Shown piece by piece: positions 34,024 through 61,080 of a stretch of 64,000 nucleotides of DNA (position 1 is its first letter; each line of letters begins with the position of its first letter). The notes beneath the pieces were generated by a model. The model was not told the origin of the DNA, did not search any database, and saw only the letters and a program-made list of their open reading frames with translations. Source of the DNA: Streptomyces syringium (GTDB taxonomy: Bacteria; Actinomycetota; Actinomycetes; Streptomycetales; Streptomycetaceae). The DNA lies in contig NZ_JAGIOH010000001.1 of the NCBI RefSeq assembly GCF_017876625.1, forward strand, positions 1,922,001 to 1,986,000, read 5' to 3'. The position numbers and the translations under genes were made by a program.

Positions 34024-34046
34024 ACCCTACTTGCGGGCAGTGACAA
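34024..34046 (-). promoter_or_regulatory. RecA-NDp-type damage promoter of uvrC
   Basis: On the minus strand TTGTCACTG (34038-34046), 8 bases, then TAGGGT (34024-34029). The consensus for PafBC-controlled actinobacterial damage promoters is TTGTCRGTG-N8-TAnnnT; one base differs. TAGGGT is 7 bases from the ATG, so the mRNA is probably leaderless. Confidence 0.75.
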
Positions 34047-41672: not shown

Positions 41673-41695
41673 AGAGTACGGGGGGCCACTGACAA
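41673..41695 (-). promoter_or_regulatory. RecA-NDp-type damage promoter of uvrA
   Basis: On the minus strand TTGTCAGTG (41687-41695), exactly 8 bases, then TACTCT (41673-41678). This is a perfect match to TTGTCRGTG-N8-TAnnnT. The transcript would start near 41666, giving a leader of about 73 bases to the GTG. Confidence 0.85.
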
Positions 41696-51102: not shown

Positions 51103-51125
51103 ACCGTACGGCCCACCACTGACAA
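51103..51125 (-). promoter_or_regulatory. RecA-NDp-type damage promoter of uvrB
   Basis: On the minus strand TTGTCAGTG (51117-51125), 8 bases, then TACGGT (51103-51108), a perfect fit to TTGTCRGTG-N8-TAnnnT. TACGGT is 6 bases from the ATG, so the transcript is almost certainly leaderless. Confidence 0.85.
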
Positions 51126-52937: not shown

Positions 52938-54137
52938 CTACGCCGCCGACGCCTCCATCAGGTCCACCAGTGCGCTCACCGGGTCCTCGGTGGCCGCCCC
53001 CGTCGGCCACCAGACGGGGACGGGGGCCGGGGGGTCGGCCTCGTAGGGGTACCAGCGGCCGTCGTGGCCGTAGCGGAGCTGGATGCCGCGGGCTTCGTCC
53101 GTGAGGTGGTTGTGGCGGGGGCGGAGTGGGGGGAGGCCGGCGGCGGTGAGGGTGGAGCGGGCTCGGTCGAAGGGGCCGGCCGGGGGGTCCCAGGGGGTTT
53201 CGAGGACGGACAGGCCCTCCGGGCCGCCCTGGCGCCAGGCGGCCACCGCGCGGGCCACGTCGGTGGGGGTGCGGCCGGTGCCCGCCGCGAGGGCGCGGTA
53301 GAGGGCACGGGTGGAGGCGGTCAGGCCGGAGGTGGGGTGGGCGGCGGCCAGGCGCACCGCGTCCTGCCAGGGGGTGAGGTCCGGGAAGGGCGTGCCGCCG
53401 GTGGTGAGGAAGGCGTGGGCCCGGGAGACCGCGTCCGCGGCGAGGAATTCGAGGAGGTCCGGGTCCAGCGGCAGGCCCTCCGCGTCGGGGAGCGCCGGCG
53501 GCCGGCCGAGGTGGGCGGGCACGGGCAACGGCGGAGGGAGCGGCGGGCGTCGCTCGGCCGACAGCGCCGCGCGGGCGCTGACCCCGGTGGGCGGGGCGGT
53601 TGCTTCCCGGGCCGCGTGGGCGGCGTTGCGGCGGGCGAGGTCGTCGAGGAGCTCCCGCTCGTCACGGCCGCGCATCAGCAGCAGCAGGAAGAAGTCACCG
53701 TCCAGCAGCCGGGCCGTCTCGTAGCAGAGGGCGGCCGCGTGCTTGCAGGGGTGGCCGCGGTCGGGGCAGGTGCAGTGCGGGGACAGATCACCGGGGCCGG
53801 GCAGCAGCCGGACGCCCGCGGTGGTGGCCGCGTCGGCCAGCGCGTGCGGCATGCCCTTGTCGAGGAGTGCCGCGAGGTGGTCCGGGTGGTCCGCGACGGC
53901 GTCCAGGAAGCGGTCCCAGTCGTCGTCGGAGAGCGTGCGGAGCCCGATGCCCGTGCGATACGGGCGCGAGCGGCTGCCCTCGACCCGCGCCGTGACACGG
54001 CCGGGAGCGACCGTGATGTCACGGACATGGCCCCCGCGGGCGTACGAACGGCCCCGGGAGAGGCGGCCCTCGTCGAGGGACATGGTCTCCAGGGCCTCGA
54101 TCCACGCGCGGCCCCACCAGGACGTGGCGCCGGTCAT
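52938..54137 (-). CDS. SWIM zinc-finger protein paired with SNF2 helicase
   Basis: 399 residues. The N-terminal part (WWGRAWIEALETMSLDEGRLSRGRSYARGGHVRDI) is the conserved start of SWIM proteins in actinobacteria, and the SWIM finger is CTCPDRGHPCKHAAALCYE (CxCx6CxH). The C-terminal two thirds are alanine/leucine-rich and poorly conserved, ending DPVSALVDLMEASAA. The ATG overlaps the helicase stop in ATGA, so the two are made together. SWIM domains bind DNA or proteins; a partner function for the helicase is inferred. Confidence 0.85.
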   Translation of the reverse strand: MTGATSWWGRAWIEALETMSLDEGRLSRGRSYARGGHVRDITVAPGRVTARVEGSRSRPYRTGIGLRTLSDDDWDRFLDAVADHPDHLAALLDKGMPHALADAATTAGVRLLPGPGDLSPHCTCPDRGHPCKHAAALCYETARLLDGDFFLLLLMRGRDERELLDDLARRNAAHAAREATAPPTGVSARAALSAERRPPLPPPLPVPAHLGRPPALPDAEGLPLDPDLLEFLAADAVSRAHAFLTTGGTPFPDLTPWQDAVRLAAAHPTSGLTASTRALYRALAAGTGRTPTDVARAVAAWRQGGPEGLSVLETPWDPPAGPFDRARSTLTAAGLPPLRPRHNHLTDEARGIQLRYGHDGRWYPYEADPPAPVPVWWPTGAATEDPVSALVDLMEASAA

Positions 54138-57031
54138 GCCGGCCTCCGCAGGGCCACCAGATCGGCGAGCTCGGCGTCGCTCAGCTCGGTCAGCGCGGAC
54201 TCCCCGCCGCTCAGCACCGCGTCGGCCAACGCGCGCTTGCTCTCCAGCATCTCGGCGATCCGGTCCTCGACCGTGCCCTCGGCGATGAGCCGGTGCACCT
54301 GGACCGGCTGCGTCTGCCCGATGCGGTAGGCGCGGTCGGTGGCCTGCTCCTCGACCGCCGGGTTCCACCAGCGGTCGTAGTGCACGACATGACCCGCCCG
54401 CGTGAGGTTCAGGCCCGTGCCGGCCGCCTTCAGCGACAGCAGGAACACCGGCACCTCGCCGGACTGGAACTCGTCCACCAGCTCCTGGCGCCGGGCGACC
54501 GGCGTGCCTCCGTGGAGCAGCCGGGACGGCACGCCGCGCGCCGTGAGGTGCGCGGAGAGCAGGCGGGCCATCGAGACGTACTGGGTGAAGACCAGGACGG
54601 CACCGTCCTCCGAGAGGATCGTGTCCAGCAGCTCGTCGAGCAGCTCCAGCTTGCCCGAACGCCCCGTCAGCCGGGCGGCGTCCTCCTTCAGATACTGGGC
54701 CGGGTGGTTGCAGATCTGCTTGAGATCGGTGAGCAGCTTCATCACCAGGCCGCGGCGTGCCATCCCCGCGGCCTCCTCGATGTGCGTGAGGGTCTCCCGC
54801 ACGACCGCCTCGTAGAGCGCGGCCTGTTCGCGCGACAGCGGGACCGGGTGGTCGGTCTCCGTCTTCGGCGGCAGCTCCGGGGCGATGCCGGGGTCGGACT
54901 TCCTGCGGCGCAGCAGGAAGGGCCGCACGAGTCGGCCGAGGCGCTCGGCCGCCTCCTCCCGCTCGCCCTGGTCCTCGCTCTCGATGGCGCGGGCGTGGCG
55001 GGCCCGGAAGTTCTTCAGGGAGCCGAGCAGGCCGGGGGTGGTCCAGTCCAGGAGCGCCCACAGCTCGGAGAGGTTGTTCTCCACGGGGGTGCCGGTGAGG
55101 GCGACACGGGCGGGCGCGGGAATGGTCCGCAGGGCGACGGCGGCCCGGGAGTACGGGTTCTTGACGTGCTGTGCCTCGTCCGCGACGACCAGGCCCCAGG
55201 GGTGCTCGGCGAGCAGGGCGGCGCTGGTGCGCATCGTGCCGTAGGTGGTGAGGACGAAGCCGCTCGTCATCGCGTCCAGGGCCCGGCCGGTGCCGTGGAA
55301 GCGGTGGACGGGGACGCCGGGCGCGAAGTGCTCGATCTCGCGCTGCCAGTTGCCGAGGAGGGAGGCCGGGCAGATCACCAGGGTCGGGGGCATCGTGCCC
55401 GCCGACCGCGACGCGCGGTGCAGGTGCAGGGCGATGAGCGTGACGGTCTTGCCGAGGCCCATGTCGTCGGCGAGGCAGCCGCCCAGGCCGAGCGAGGTCA
55501 TCAGGTCCAGCCAGGCCAGCCCGCGCAGCTGGTAGTCGCGCAGCGTCGCGTGCAGCCCGGGCGGCGGGACCACCGGCTGTGCCTGGCCGGTGATCCGGTC
55601 GCGGAGGGCGGCGAGCGCTCCCGTGGGGACGACCTCGGTACGCTCGCCGTCGATGTCGCCCGTGCCGGTGAGGGCCACCGACAGGCCTTCGGCGGCGTCG
55701 AGCCGGCCGAGGTGACGTGCGCGCGCCTTGCGGACCAGCGCGGGGTCCACCAGCACCCATTGGTCACGCAGGCGCACCACGGGCCGGTGCGCTTCCGCGA
55801 GGGCGTCCATCTCCTGCTCGGTGAGCGGTGCCCCGCCCAGCGCGAGCTGCCAGCTGAACTCCAGGGCCCGCGCGGTGTCGAAGAAGGCGGGCTCGTCGGA
55901 CGCGGTGCCCGGTGCCATCCGGACGACCGCCGTGGCGGTCAGCCCACGGGCGAGCTCCCGGGGCCAGTGCACGGCGATGCCCGCGGCGGACAGGCGCCGC
56001 GCGACGGGCCCCAGCAGCTCGTACAGCTCGTCCTCGGCGAGGGGCAGGACATCGGGCACGGGCCGGTCGAGCAGGCGGGCGAGCGGTGGCCACAGGCGGG
56101 CCGCGCGCCGCAGGGCGAGGACCGTGTCGATGCGGCTGCGCGCCCCGAAGTGCTCTCCCGCCCGCCCCGCCCACAGCTCGGCCGCGTCGGTGAGCAGGGT
56201 CGGGTCGACCAGGCTGTGGACCTGCACGACGACCGTCGCGTGACCGCCCTCCTCGTCGAGGTCGTGCGCTCCCAGGTCCAGGCGCAGTGAGATCCGCACC
56301 CCGGTGTCGGCACCGGTCGCGGCCTCGGCGCACCAAGCGCTCAGGGCCGGTGAGCCGGGCGGGCGGGATGGGCGGCCCGGTGCCGCGTAGAGGTCTCCGG
56401 CCGCGTGGGCGGCGGCGGGCGTGCGCGGCAGACGGTCGGTGACGGCGTCGAGCAGCTCCCGCACCAGCGTCTCCGGGGCGGGCAGCCGCAGCGGGCCGGA
56501 GCCGGGCAGGGGCACCGCGTGGGCCTCGGGCGGCATGGCGGCGGCGATCGCCCGGAGGTGTGCGAGGTCGTCGGCGTCCAGCGGGCCGGCCTGCCAGGCG
56601 TCGTGCCCGGCCGGGGTGAGTCCCGGGCGGAAGCGGCCCCGCGCGACGAGGCCCATCGCGTGCAGCACGGCCGCTCCCCAGCACGCGGCCGCCGGATGGG
56701 CGCACGGGTCGTGCCGGGCCCGGGCGAGGAGCGGCACGGCCTGGTCGAGGGGCAGCACGAGGGCGGGCACGGTGTGCCGCCGGACACCGCGTCCGTGGGG
56801 GCGCACGACCGTGAGCTCGGCGGGCGGCGTCCCCGTCGGGTCCCCGCCGGGTGTGCCCGTCGTCTCCGGCAGGGGGCCACCGTCCGGGCGCCAGAAGGCG
56901 ACCGTGGTGGCCCTCGGCGGGTCGGCGGGCAGCAGCACCGCGGCGCAGCGCGCCAGCGGCTCGGTCCGCGATGCCCCGGGCCCGGCCGGGCCGTGGCCGG
57001 ACCGTGCCCGCGAGGGCAGTGCCTGTGCCAC
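54134..57031 (-). CDS. SNF2-family DEAD/DEAH helicase, damage-promoter linked
   Basis: About 965 residues from the GTG at 57031; GTG at 57061 or 57112 are alternatives. The N-terminal 480 residues form the SNF2-associated region. The helicase core starts LRDYQLRGLAWLDLMTSLGLGGCLADDMGLGKTVTL, continues with VVADEAQHVKNPYS (DEAQ), LTGTPVENNLSELWALLDW, and ends in AVLVFTQYVSMARLL, LLSLKAAGTGLNLTRAGHVVHYDRWWNPAVEEQATDRAYRIGQ. SNF2 enzymes move along duplex DNA or remodel bound proteins. A RecA-NDp-type promoter lies about 90 bases upstream, and the SWIM gene follows. Repair or phage-defence functions are both possible. Confidence 0.92.
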   Translation of the reverse strand: MAQALPSRARSGHGPAGPGASRTEPLARCAAVLLPADPPRATTVAFWRPDGGPLPETTGTPGGDPTGTPPAELTVVRPHGRGVRRHTVPALVLPLDQAVPLLARARHDPCAHPAAACWGAAVLHAMGLVARGRFRPGLTPAGHDAWQAGPLDADDLAHLRAIAAAMPPEAHAVPLPGSGPLRLPAPETLVRELLDAVTDRLPRTPAAAHAAGDLYAAPGRPSRPPGSPALSAWCAEAATGADTGVRISLRLDLGAHDLDEEGGHATVVVQVHSLVDPTLLTDAAELWAGRAGEHFGARSRIDTVLALRRAARLWPPLARLLDRPVPDVLPLAEDELYELLGPVARRLSAAGIAVHWPRELARGLTATAVVRMAPGTASDEPAFFDTARALEFSWQLALGGAPLTEQEMDALAEAHRPVVRLRDQWVLVDPALVRKARARHLGRLDAAEGLSVALTGTGDIDGERTEVVPTGALAALRDRITGQAQPVVPPPGLHATLRDYQLRGLAWLDLMTSLGLGGCLADDMGLGKTVTLIALHLHRASRSAGTMPPTLVICPASLLGNWQREIEHFAPGVPVHRFHGTGRALDAMTSGFVLTTYGTMRTSAALLAEHPWGLVVADEAQHVKNPYSRAAVALRTIPAPARVALTGTPVENNLSELWALLDWTTPGLLGSLKNFRARHARAIESEDQGEREEAAERLGRLVRPFLLRRRKSDPGIAPELPPKTETDHPVPLSREQAALYEAVVRETLTHIEEAAGMARRGLVMKLLTDLKQICNHPAQYLKEDAARLTGRSGKLELLDELLDTILSEDGAVLVFTQYVSMARLLSAHLTARGVPSRLLHGGTPVARRQELVDEFQSGEVPVFLLSLKAAGTGLNLTRAGHVVHYDRWWNPAVEEQATDRAYRIGQTQPVQVHRLIAEGTVEDRIAEMLESKRALADAVLSGGESALTELSDAELADLVALRRPA

Positions 57032-57123
57032 CCGCCCATCACCTCGCCCGTCTCGTGCCACCCGCCGCCGCCCTGATCGTGTGATCGCCGGACTTCCACG
57101 GCACTCGTCCACGACACGGACCG

Positions 57124-57146
57124 AGTCTACGGAGAGGCACTGACAT
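57124..57146 (-). promoter_or_regulatory. RecA-NDp-type damage promoter of the SNF2-SWIM operon
   Basis: On the minus strand ATGTCAGTG (57138-57146), 8 bases, then TAGACT (57124-57129). One base (the first T) differs from TTGTCRGTG-N8-TAnnnT; spacing and -10 are exact. The transcript would start near 57117. Confidence 0.7.
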
Positions 57147-57248
57147 CCCCGGTCCGCCGCCGTCGGCGGCCTCAGCCGACCGCGCATCGCCCCGGAACGT
57201 CCGGTTCTTCCGCGTCGCCCGCGCCGGGTGGATCCTGGGGAGTGGGAG

Positions 57249-57560
57249 ATGAGTGCCATGCGTACGGGCAGCGAACCGGTGACCGCGCGGAGTCCACTGC
57301 GGCTGCGTTGCGGGCTGGCCCTGTGGGGGCTGCTCTGGGCCGTGGCGGGGACCGTGCTCTTCGCGGCGGCGGGGCAGCCCGGGTGGGCGATCGCCTGCGC
57401 GGTGCTGATCGCGGTGACCGCCACCGATCTGATCATGGTGATACGGCACATGCGCCAGGGCCCGCACTACCAGCCGGGCCGGGACGTCCCGCCCTATGAG
57501 CCCGTCCGCAACCGGAACGTCCCGCCTCATGAGTCCGTCCGCAAGCCGAGGCGCCGGTAG
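57249..57560 (+). CDS. DUF6343-like small membrane protein
   Basis: 103 residues from the ATG at 57249 with GGGAGTGGGAG in front. The first part is RTGSEPVTARSPLRLRCGLA, then two helices (LWGLLWAVAGTVLFAAAG and WAIACAVLIAVTATDLIMVI), then a basic proline-rich tail in which a segment is duplicated (DVPPYEPVRN, NVPPHESVRK). This matches the DUF6343 family of Streptomyces; function unknown. It is divergent from the SNF2 operon and converges on coaE. Confidence 0.75.
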   Translation: MSAMRTGSEPVTARSPLRLRCGLALWGLLWAVAGTVLFAAAGQPGWAIACAVLIAVTATDLIMVIRHMRQGPHYQPGRDVPPYEPVRNRNVPPHESVRKPRRR

Positions 57561-57583: not shown

Positions 57584-58192
57584 CTATGCGGTGGGGTGCG
57601 CCGACCGTGCGAGCAGGTCCGCCCAGACCTTCGCGACCTGTGCCTCCAGCGCTTCGAGCGGGCCGTCGTTGTCGATGACGAGATCGGCGACGGCCAGCCG
57701 CTCCTCTCGGGTCGCCTGGGCGGCCATCCGGGCGCGGGCCTCCTCGAGCGTCATGCCGCGCAGCCGGACGAGGCGGTCGAGGCGGGTCTCCTCCGCCGCG
57801 TCGATGACGACGACCAGGTCGTAGAGGGGCGCGAGGCCGTTCTCGGCGAGGAGGGGGACGTCGTGGACGACGACGGCGTCCGGGGCCGCCGCCGCTTCGA
57901 TCTCGGCGGAGCGGGCGCGGACGAGGGGGTGCACGATGGCGTTGAGCGCCGTGAGCCGGCCGGTGTCGGCGAAGACGATCGCGCCGAGCTTGGGCCGGTC
58001 GAGGGCGCCGTCGGCCGCGAGGACGCCGGGGCCGAACTCGGCGACGACGGCGGCCAGTCCGGGCGTGCCCGGCTCGACCACCTCCCGCGCGATGCGGTCG
58101 GCGTCGACGATCACCGCCCCGTACGCCGCGAGAAGCCGCGACACCTCGCTCTTGCCCGACCCGATACCGCCCGTGAGGCCCACCTTCAGCAT
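57584..58192 (-). CDS. coaE: Dephospho-CoA kinase
   Basis: 202 residues from the ATG at 58192. Walker A is [18 protein letters not shown]; the substrate region [15 protein letters not shown] and the [10 protein letters not shown] lid are conserved. It phosphorylates the ribose 3'-OH of dephospho-CoA, the last step of CoA synthesis. Follows the PAC2 gene by 25 bases and lies near rpsA, an order common to actinobacteria. Confidence 0.96.
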
Positions 58193-58217
58193 GGGCCCCA
58201 CGCTATCGGCCCGGCCG

Positions 58218-59162
58218 TCAACGGCCGCCGTCGCCCTCCCTGTCGGCGAGGAAGCGCTCGAATTCCGCGCCCAGTTCATCGGCCGAGGGCAGCTCGACCG
58301 GCTCGGCGACGAGATTGCCGCGCGTCTCGGAGCCGGCCACCGCGTCGTACTGGTGCTCAAGGCCCCGGACGAGCGCGACGAGCTCCTCGTCCCCCTCGGC
58401 AATCTGCCGCTCGATCTCCTCCTGGGTGCGCAGGGCCTCGGTCCGCAGGGCGTGCGCGGCGTTCGGCAGGACCAGGCCCGTGGCGGCGGTGACCGCCTCC
58501 AGGGCGGTCAGCGCGGCATCCGGGTAGGGCGAGCGGGCCACGTAGTGCGGGACGTGGGCGGCGACGCCGAGGACGTCGTGGCCGGCTTCCGCCAGGCGGT
58601 ACTCGACGAACGACTCGGCGCTGCCGGGCACCTGGGCCTCGTCGAAGTAGCTACGGTGACCGGGCATCAGATCGGTGCGGTTGCCGTGCGGGGTGATACC
58701 GACGGGCCGGGTGTGCGGGACGCCCATGGGGATGCCGTGGAAGTTGACCGACAGCCGCACGCCCAGCCGCTCCACCAGCTGCCGGACAGCCGCCGCGAAC
58801 CGCTCCCACTCGACGTCCGGCTCGGGGCCGGTCAGCAGCAGGAAGGGCGCGCCGGTCGCGTCCTGCACCAGGTACAGCTCGATCTTCGGCGTCTCGTAGG
58901 CGCTCCAGTGGTCCCGCTCGAAGGTGAGCAGGGGGCGGCGCGCCCGGTAGTCGATGAGCCGGTCGTGGTCGAAGCGGGCGACGACCTGGTGCGGCAGGCC
59001 GTCCAGCAGCCGCTCGACGATCTGTTCGCCGGTCTCACCGGCGTCGATGTAGCCGTCGAAGTGGTAGAGCATGACCAGACCGGCCGTGTCCTGGGCCAGG
59101 GCCAGGTCGGCCACGGCGAGCCCCTTGGGCTCCCATTCGTACAAACCCTGCGGATCCAACAC
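58218..59162 (-). CDS. PAC2-family protein
   Basis: 314 residues, GTG start with AGGAGGAAC in front. The PAC2 domain is marked by [37 protein letters not shown]-like segment [22 protein letters not shown], and [18 protein letters not shown]2 proteins resemble proteasome-assembly chaperones; in actinobacteria they accompany proteasome-containing genomes, but a direct assembly role is not proven here. It ends in a helical acidic tail. Likely co-transcribed with coaE. Confidence 0.92.
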
Positions 59163-59459
59163 AGTGACCGTTCCTCCTCATGTTCCGTACCAGGGAACGC
59201 CCGTGGAGGTCCGGCTCATTCCCGTCCGCCCCCCCTGTCCCGGAGGAAGAGACGGGTCGTCAAGAGACCGGGACCGCCTCATGAGGTTGACGAGGCATCA
59301 GGAGTAATCAGGGGGAGCAGGCAGACAGCGGACCGGCCGTGCCCTGTCCCGCATGCTCCGGGCCTCGCCCCGCAGGGCCCCCGGACATGCAGTAAGGCCC
59401 GCTCCCCAAGGGGAACGGGCCTTACTTCAGTCAGCTGTCAGCTGCTGCCGGTCAGAGCC
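59163..59459. other. Intergenic region rpsA-PAC2, terminator only
   Basis: 297 bases without a credible gene. The right part holds the rpsA terminator; the left part near the PAC2 gene contains the palindrome CCTCATGAGG (59277-59286) but no clear promoter hexamers that I can defend. Confidence 0.5.
59392..59425 (-). terminator. Terminator of rpsA
   Basis: GTAAGGCCCGCTCCCC (59392-59407) pairs with 59410-59425 at 15 of 16 positions around AA. It lies 35 bases after the rpsA stop. Confidence 0.85.
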
Positions 59460-60974
59460 TCAGCTCTGGCCGCCGGCGAGCTTCTCGCGGAGCGCGGCGA
59501 GCGCCTCGTCCGACGCCAGGGCGCCGGAGTTGTCGGCCGACTCCGAGGAGTACGAACCGCCGGAGACGTTGCCGCCGCCGGTCGAGGAGGAGGCACCGGC
59601 CGGAGCGGCAGCGCCCTCGGCCGCGGCCTGCTCGTCGGCCTCGCGGGACTTGATGACCTGCGCCTGGTGCTGCTCGAAGCGCTGCTGCGCCTCGGCGTAC
59701 TGGCGCTCCCACTCCTCGCGCTGCTTCTCGTAGCCCTCGAGCCAGTCGTTGGCCTCGGGGTCGAAGCCCTCGGGGTAGATGTAGTTGCCCTGGTCGTCGT
59801 AGGACGCGGCCATGCCGTACAGGGTCGGGTCGAACTCGACCACGGACGGGTCGGCACCGAAGGACTCGTTGGCCTGCTTCAGCGAGAGGCTGATGCGACG
59901 ACGCTCGAGGTCGATGTCGATGACCTTGACGAAGATCTCGTCGTTGACCTGGACGACCTGCTCCGGGATCTCCACGTGGCGCTCGGCCAGCTCGGAGATG
60001 TGGACCAGGCCCTCGATGCCCTCGTCGACGCGCACGAACGCACCGAAGGGAACGAGCTTGGTGACCTTACCCGGGACGACCTGACCGATCTGGTGGGTCC
60101 GGGCGAACTGCTGCCACGGGTCTTCCTGCGTCGCCTTGAGCGACAGGGAGACACGCTCGCGGTCCATGTCGACGTCGAGGACCTCGACGGTGACTTCCTG
60201 GCCGACCTCGACAACCTCGGACGGGTGGTCGATGTGCTTCCAGGAGAGCTCGGAGACGTGGACGAGACCGTCGACGCCGCCGAGGTCCACGAACGCACCG
60301 AAGTTGACGATCGAGGAAACGACGCCGGAGCGGACCTGGCCCTTCTGCAGGGTCGTGAGGAAGGTCTGGCGGACCTCGCTCTGGGTCTGCTCCAGCCAGG
60401 CACGGCGGGACAGGACCACGTTGTTGCGGTTCTTGTCCAGCTCGATGATCTTGGCCTCGAGCTCCTTGCCCACGTAGGGCTGGAGGTCGCGGACGCGGCG
60501 CATCTCGACCAGGGAGGCCGGGAGGAAGCCACGGAGGCCGATGTCGAGGATGAGACCACCCTTGACGACCTCGATGACGGTACCGGTGACGATCCCGTCC
60601 TCTTCCTTGATCTTCTCGATCGTGCCCCAGGCACGCTCGTACTGAGCGCGCTTCTTGGACAGGATGAGACGACCTTCCTTGTCCTCCTTCTGGAGAACCA
60701 GGGCCTCGATCTCGTCGCCGACCTTGACGACCTCGTTCGGGTCGACGTCGTGCTTGATCGAAAGCTCGCGGGAAGGGATGACGCCTTCGGTCTTGTAACC
60801 GATGTCGAGCAGGACCTCGTCCCGGTCGACCTTCACGATGACGCCGTCGACGATGTCGCCGTCGTTGAAGTACTTGATCGTCTCGTCGATCGCGGCGAGG
60901 AAGGCTTCCTCGTTACCGATGTCGTTGACCGCAACCTGCGGAGTGGTGGCGGTGGTCTCGGTGCTGCTCGTCAT
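59460..60974 (-). CDS. rpsA: Ribosomal protein S1
   Basis: 504 residues with four S1 (OB-fold) domains; the best preserved are around GDIVDGVIVKVDRDEVLLDIGYKTEG, GTVIEVVKGGLILDIGLRGFLPASL, SGVVSSIVNFGAFVDLGGVDGLVHVSELSW and GKVTKLVPFGAFVRVDEGIEGLVHISEL. Actinobacterial S1 has four rather than six domains. The C-terminal 130 residues are acidic, glutamine-rich and then Ser/Gly/Ala-rich. S1 brings mRNA to the 30S subunit; this matters in a genome with many leaderless mRNAs. A long 5' leader with a good promoter lies upstream. Confidence 0.98.
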   Translation of the reverse strand: MTSSTETTATTPQVAVNDIGNEEAFLAAIDETIKYFNDGDIVDGVIVKVDRDEVLLDIGYKTEGVIPSRELSIKHDVDPNEVVKVGDEIEALVLQKEDKEGRLILSKKRAQYERAWGTIEKIKEEDGIVTGTVIEVVKGGLILDIGLRGFLPASLVEMRRVRDLQPYVGKELEAKIIELDKNRNNVVLSRRAWLEQTQSEVRQTFLTTLQKGQVRSGVVSSIVNFGAFVDLGGVDGLVHVSELSWKHIDHPSEVVEVGQEVTVEVLDVDMDRERVSLSLKATQEDPWQQFARTHQIGQVVPGKVTKLVPFGAFVRVDEGIEGLVHISELAERHVEIPEQVVQVNDEIFVKVIDIDLERRRISLSLKQANESFGADPSVVEFDPTLYGMAASYDDQGNYIYPEGFDPEANDWLEGYEKQREEWERQYAEAQQRFEQHQAQVIKSREADEQAAAEGAAAPAGASSSTGGGNVSGGSYSSESADNSGALASDEALAALREKLAGGQS

Positions 60975-61080
60975 GTGGGAAAGGGCTCCGGTACGGACAG
61001 TGAGTCGTAGGTACTGCTACGCCGAGAGCCCGTATCGCACCGCCGAAGCCGGACAGCCTTGGAGGTGCCTGATCCGAGGG

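Follow-up and report, generated by a model that had tools for sequence, protein, structure and literature searches.

Does the short bipartite site upstream of a two-gene SNF2-SWIM operon in Streptomyces syringium act as a DNA-damage promoter of the type used by PafBC in mycobacteria, and what might the operon contribute to the damage response? We addressed this question in a stretch of 64,000 nucleotides, referred to here as the window, in which the operon and its upstream site are arranged as follows:

52938..54137, minus strand: SWIM zinc-finger protein, 399 aa (Pfam SWIM)
54134..57031, minus strand: SNF2-family translocase, 965 aa, with DUF3670, SNF2-rel_dom and Helicase_C (Pfam)
57124..57129, minus strand: -10 element TAGACT, TAnnnT form, 8-base gap from the -26 element
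57138..57146, minus strand: -26 element ATGTCAGTG, RecA-NDp/PafBC type, one mismatch to the consensus TTGTCRGTG

Read on the minus strand, positions 57124-57146 are ATGTCAGTG CCTCTCCG TAGACT. The sole mismatch to TTGTCRGTG-N8-TAnnnT is the first base, A for T, a position that is also variable among the other sites of this genome; the 8-base gap and the TAnnnT form of the -10 element are exact. The preliminary description had placed a motif one base from this consensus, with exact spacing, about 90 bases before the helicase start of a gene pair overlapping by 4 bases, and all of this held: the distance to the proposed SNF2 start is 92 bases, and the SWIM start codon and SNF2 stop share the bases ATGA. 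The proposed start is the GTG at 57031, preceded by GAGGTGATGGGCG, a plausible ribosome-binding site; an alternative in-frame GTG lies at 57112. A transcript initiated from TAGACT is predicted to have an untranslated leader some 85 bases long, unlike those of most genomic sites. A 258-aa frame (56341-57117), whose GTG lies 6 bases after TAGACT, was considered as a leaderless gene and rejected: it overlaps SNF2 in another reading frame and its start is absent at the same place in the other members, read by eye, of the clade defined below, so that it is probably incidental. A simple pattern search of 56901-57450 found no LexA box.

Matches to the motif are frequent in the window as a whole. With up to two mismatches to the full pattern, 8 matches were counted against 1.27 expected, a number that 0 of 100 shuffles reached. 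The following sites lie before uvr genes:

34024..34046, minus strand: TTGTCACTG-N8-TAGGGT before uvrC, one mismatch, with the uvrC ATG 7 bases downstream
41673..41695, minus strand: exact RecA-NDp motif before uvrA, an in-window positive control
51103..51125, minus strand: exact RecA-NDp motif before uvrB, with the uvrB ATG 6 bases downstream, an in-window positive control

Genome-wide, the pattern NTGTCRGTG-N8-TANNNT returned 47 sites, including that of the window, and the reversed control pattern returned 0. The genes behind these sites comprise ung, rarA, ruvC, a PD-(D/E)XK nuclease gene, a DnaQ-like exonuclease gene, uvrA, uvrB, dnaE, an AlkZ-like gene, recQ, rpsF, dnaX, nth, radA, pcrA, a UvrD-like helicase gene, thyX, recA and dinG, together with some transporters and unknowns. 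At 31 of the 47 sites an ATG or GTG lies 5-9 bases after TAnnnT, versus a background of 6.6 and a largest background window of 14; the start codons cluster 6-7 bases past the -10 element, as would be expected for true -10 elements with leaderless transcripts. Taken together, the 47 sites constitute a candidate PafBC regulon of Streptomyces. The window site ranks low by score (40 among 47), in part because its first base is A.

Two further observations concern genes behind such motifs. At L137 (1617-2993, minus strand), a second, uncharacterised SWIM-type protein (CxCx7CxH as read by eye, without a Pfam match) has an exact motif upstream, its ATG at +7 and a DUF5691 gene following it, and is a further candidate regulon member. 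At L134 and L140, MsbA-like ABC transporter genes lie 5-6 bases past regulon motifs.

Conservation was assessed in 180 SNF2-SWIM copies, of which 80 came from named loci and 100 from loci in Streptomyces genomes retrieved by a DUF3670 family search. In a FastTree phylogeny of the SNF2 proteins, the window's clade (clade A) comprises 80 sequences with a support of 1.0. A site was scored if it fitted TTGTCRG(TG or AC)-N8-TAnnnT, one mismatch being allowed, and lay no more than 520 bp upstream. The motif was present in 74 of the 79 clade members with enough upstream DNA versus 0 of 98 copies on other branches (Fisher p = 2e-44, a value that does not count independent events, as the clade sequences are kin). 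This caveat of kinship is offset by 47 clade members with flanks less than 60% identical to each other, in which the motif positions are fixed and the flanks vary. Across the clade, the -26 element is conserved as TTGTCRG(A/T)(C/G) and the -10 element as TAnnnT followed by CG. Weaker cases counted in the 74 are L054, L224 and L228, which keep TTGTCAGTG 412-467 bp upstream and have TTCCAT/TTTCCT instead of TAnnnT. Copies without the motif include two further ones in the window's own genome (L209 and L250) and the sampled relatives from Kribbella, Actinomadura, Actinokineospora and other genera.

These figures bear directly on whether the site is a chance match without function, as its one mismatch and its low rank among the 47 sites might suggest. 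The clade motif, with at most one mismatch, is expected about 0.0024 times per 520-bp upstream region by chance, and it was found at 74/79 in the clade and 0/98 outside it; on this background rate and clade comparison we reject a chance match as very improbable. Conservation among orthologues, the check on which the preliminary description had made its proposal depend, was thus found in the window's clade, and together with the PafBC genes described next it gives the assignment of promoter and regulon strong computational support. Judged on the promoter alone, the PafBC-type reading of 57124-57146 is very probably right, and the operon most likely belongs to the PafBC DNA-damage regulon.

The PafBC genes of this genome encode HTH_PafC+WYL+WCX and WYL+WCX proteins in tandem, beside PafA, the Pup ligase gene. 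In mycobacteria, PafBC acts via the RecA-NDp motif, for which it has been shown to be the activator, and single-stranded DNA activates PafBC. Within the clade, the -26 element occurs in two forms, 55 members having AC (TTGTCAGAC) and 11 having TG (TTGTCAGTG), with the window among the TG minority. The AC form was first recognised in the named loci and then built into the scoring; the enrichment analysis and the 100 further loci came afterwards. TTGTCRGAC proved to be enriched in 41 Streptomyces genomes (1-12 per genome, control hits 5 in all), and in related genomes TTGTCAGAC lies upstream of ligA, an exonuclease III-type gene and pup (examples read: L113, L116, L118 and L119). A separate observation is that the TTGTCAGAC site before pup, the gene of Pup itself, links pupylation with this kind of promoter.

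In principle the site, especially in its TTGTCRGAC form, could be read by a different regulator, either another WYL-domain protein or ClgR, which was at one time proposed for mycobacteria. The genome contains nine WYL matches, most SNF2 orthologues have AC instead of TG, and ClgR reportedly recognises such promoters in M. smegmatis (cited in PMC5656591). However, TG and AC sites are found at equivalent positions upstream of orthologous genes, their spacing is identical, and core repair genes lie behind both. In mycobacteria, it is PafBC that has been shown to activate through this motif. We consider another regulator improbable, and the AC form would appear to be a naturally occurring version of this promoter.

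Exact TTGTCAGTG sites are widespread in the genus: all 61 of 61 Streptomyces genomes sampled contain them, at 3-40 each, with control hits of 3 in total, and other members of the class contain 0-5. Among named genomes, the scan covered those of S. narbonensis, S. zaomyceticus, S. tanashiensis, S. lavendulae and S. stelliscabiei, with 13-24 exact sites in each. For S. venezuelae, a 2022 study of the LexA regulon reported no apparent conservation of the M. smegmatis PafBC motif there, and regarded a LexA-independent damage response in Streptomyces as still to be demonstrated (PMC9380542). That motif report, the low rank of the site, the SNF2 leader and the AC in most orthologues count against the best explanation, as do, on the protein side, the middling SNF2 model and the SWIM fold search described below. 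With the motif in 61 Streptomyces genomes and at repair genes here, a concrete candidate regulon is available, making a LexA-independent response directly testable; the SNF2-SWIM operon is a conserved candidate member of it, for which the sister copies without the promoter provide natural controls.

The encoded proteins have the features of an intact translocase and its zinc-finger partner. The SNF2 protein matches SNF2-rel_dom (9e-60) and Helicase_C (2.5e-23), with DUF3670 (PF12419, 4.7e-31) upstream of the core. Both RecA-like halves characteristic of SNF2-family translocases are present, and the Walker A sequence DDMGLGKT, the DEAD-like box DEAQ and motif VI TDRAYRIGQT are essentially invariant among 25 relatives. 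In the SWIM protein, the zinc ligands C122, C124, C131 and H133 of the CxCx(n)CxH pattern are invariant among 24 relatives, and the two genes are paired in nearly all copies. The nearest solved structure by sequence is PDB 1z63, an archaeal SNF2/Rad54-family helicase (E 1.6e-144), followed by chromatin remodellers and CSB. The predicted SNF2 structure reached a middling confidence (pLDDT 71), and its N-terminal region is too uncertain to interpret. A fold search with the SWIM protein gave no significant match, the top hit being ZSWIM8 (E 0.19).

A SNF2 helicase behind the same PafBC-type promoter could also serve in defence against phages or plasmids, with damage as the alarm, instead of acting as a repair factor. 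Low E-values were obtained for the SNF2 core with the PADLOC models of the SNF2-type defence helicases DpdE, ZorD and DrmD, and several copies of relatives occur per genome. These matches nevertheless span only the generic SNF2 core (residues ~480-960), and no PADLOC model matches the SWIM protein. Among the neighbouring genes covered by the Pfam scan, no partner gene of DISARM, Zorya or Dpd was found beside SNF2. A clade-A copy, moreover, was found in most sampled Streptomyces, unlike a typical defence-island gene. A defence function is, on balance, unlikely.

The genomic neighbourhood carries no weight in the argument. The preliminary description had cited a position next to ogt and uvrB; ogt is indeed the convergent neighbour of the operon, but uvrB does not directly adjoin it, ogt and a GDPD-family gene lying between. 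Among relatives, uvrB occurs in the fetched 6-kb flank of S. varsoviensis only, and ogt in 0 of 80 named loci; we dropped adjacency as support because it is not conserved. A long ORF without a Pfam match was also noted in the window at 57936-61010 (plus strand), with relatives beside SNF2 in most clade-A named loci.

The explanation that we favour, and regard as likely, is a PafBC-dependent promoter that co-induces the SNF2-SWIM pair with repair genes, the translocase freeing damaged DNA of RNA polymerase or other proteins. Following the mechanism known from mycobacteria, upon DNA damage, single-stranded DNA would activate the PafB-PafC heterodimer, which would in turn enable the housekeeping RNA polymerase to use the -26/-10 promoter. 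The bicistronic operon would then be co-induced with nucleotide-excision and recombination repair, a step strongly supported at the sequence level because the same promoter type precedes uvrA, uvrB, uvrC, recA and about 16 other repair and replication genes. The SNF2 protein, with its active-site motifs intact, is predicted to translocate on duplex DNA, where together with its SWIM partner it would most probably dislodge or backtrack RNA polymerase or other bound proteins, thereby giving access to lesions and stalled forks.

The biochemical role is probably to strip damaged DNA of RNA polymerase or other proteins, as judged by family resemblance to RapA, B. subtilis YwqA and Rad54/SSO1653-type enzymes, and also because the SWIM protein of the P. 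gingivalis uvrA-pcrA operon bound 8-oxoG DNA. A SNF2-SWIM repair complex is a plausible reading. A more specific version, which we advance tentatively and consider rather doubtful, is a dedicated damage-induced complex of a SNF2 motor and a SWIM reader of lesions or proteins, which would prepare the way for UvrABC and recombination by stripping off RNA polymerase or nucleoid proteins, as a bacterial counterpart of CSB/Rad26 or Rad54; the pair would then have entered the PafBC regulon a single time, at the root of one Streptomyces clade of the gene family, with the sister copies keeping other controls.

Comparison with known systems places the site closest to the mycobacterial RecA-NDp/PafBC promoter (tTGTCRgtg-N8-TAnnnT). 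The -26 element, the 8-base gap and the -10 form are the same, the same kinds of genes lie downstream (recA, uvrA, uvrC and ruvC), and the PafBC genes stand beside PafA. The mycobacterial system has been established experimentally, whereas the Streptomyces sites are predicted from sequence. Unlike the mycobacterial form, TTGTCRGAC is common in Streptomyces before SNF2, ligA, the exoIII-type gene and pup, and the SNF2 transcript would be leadered.

On the protein side, B. subtilis YwqA is a SNF2 translocase and an interaction partner of RNA polymerase. A helping role at replication-transcription conflicts has been suggested for it, and PcrA depletion is more severe when YwqA is lost. YwqA and the RNA-polymerase-associated RapA of E. 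coli have the SNF2 core in common with the Streptomyces protein, a likeness at the level of the family; Pfam DUF3670, a domain of the Streptomyces SNF2 protein, also matches in the B. subtilis genome. The match to the archaeal SNF2/Rad54-family translocase 1z63, the best among solved structures, covers profile positions 447-923, which correspond to the SNF2 core; the N-terminal/DUF3670 region lies outside it, and the structure has no SWIM partner. In P. gingivalis, a uvrA-pcrA operon encodes a SWIM protein that bound an oligonucleotide with 8-oxoG (PMC3747172). There too a SWIM zinc finger is encoded with repair genes, but the partner helicase is PcrA and not SNF2.

A further known relative is HelZ (M. 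tuberculosis Rv2101, Deinococcus DR_1259 and Kineococcus Krad_1013), which a table of repair-related genes places in the Snf2/Rad54 helicase family (PMC2587704). The SNF2-SWIM pair is kept in actinobacterial relatives, the likeness to HelZ being one of family, and the sampled relatives from other genera differ from the window's clade in having no motif. The preliminary description had called such a complex not described in these bacteria, which was too strong, given that relatives are known as HelZ and that YwqA is an RNA-polymerase-interacting SNF2 translocase.
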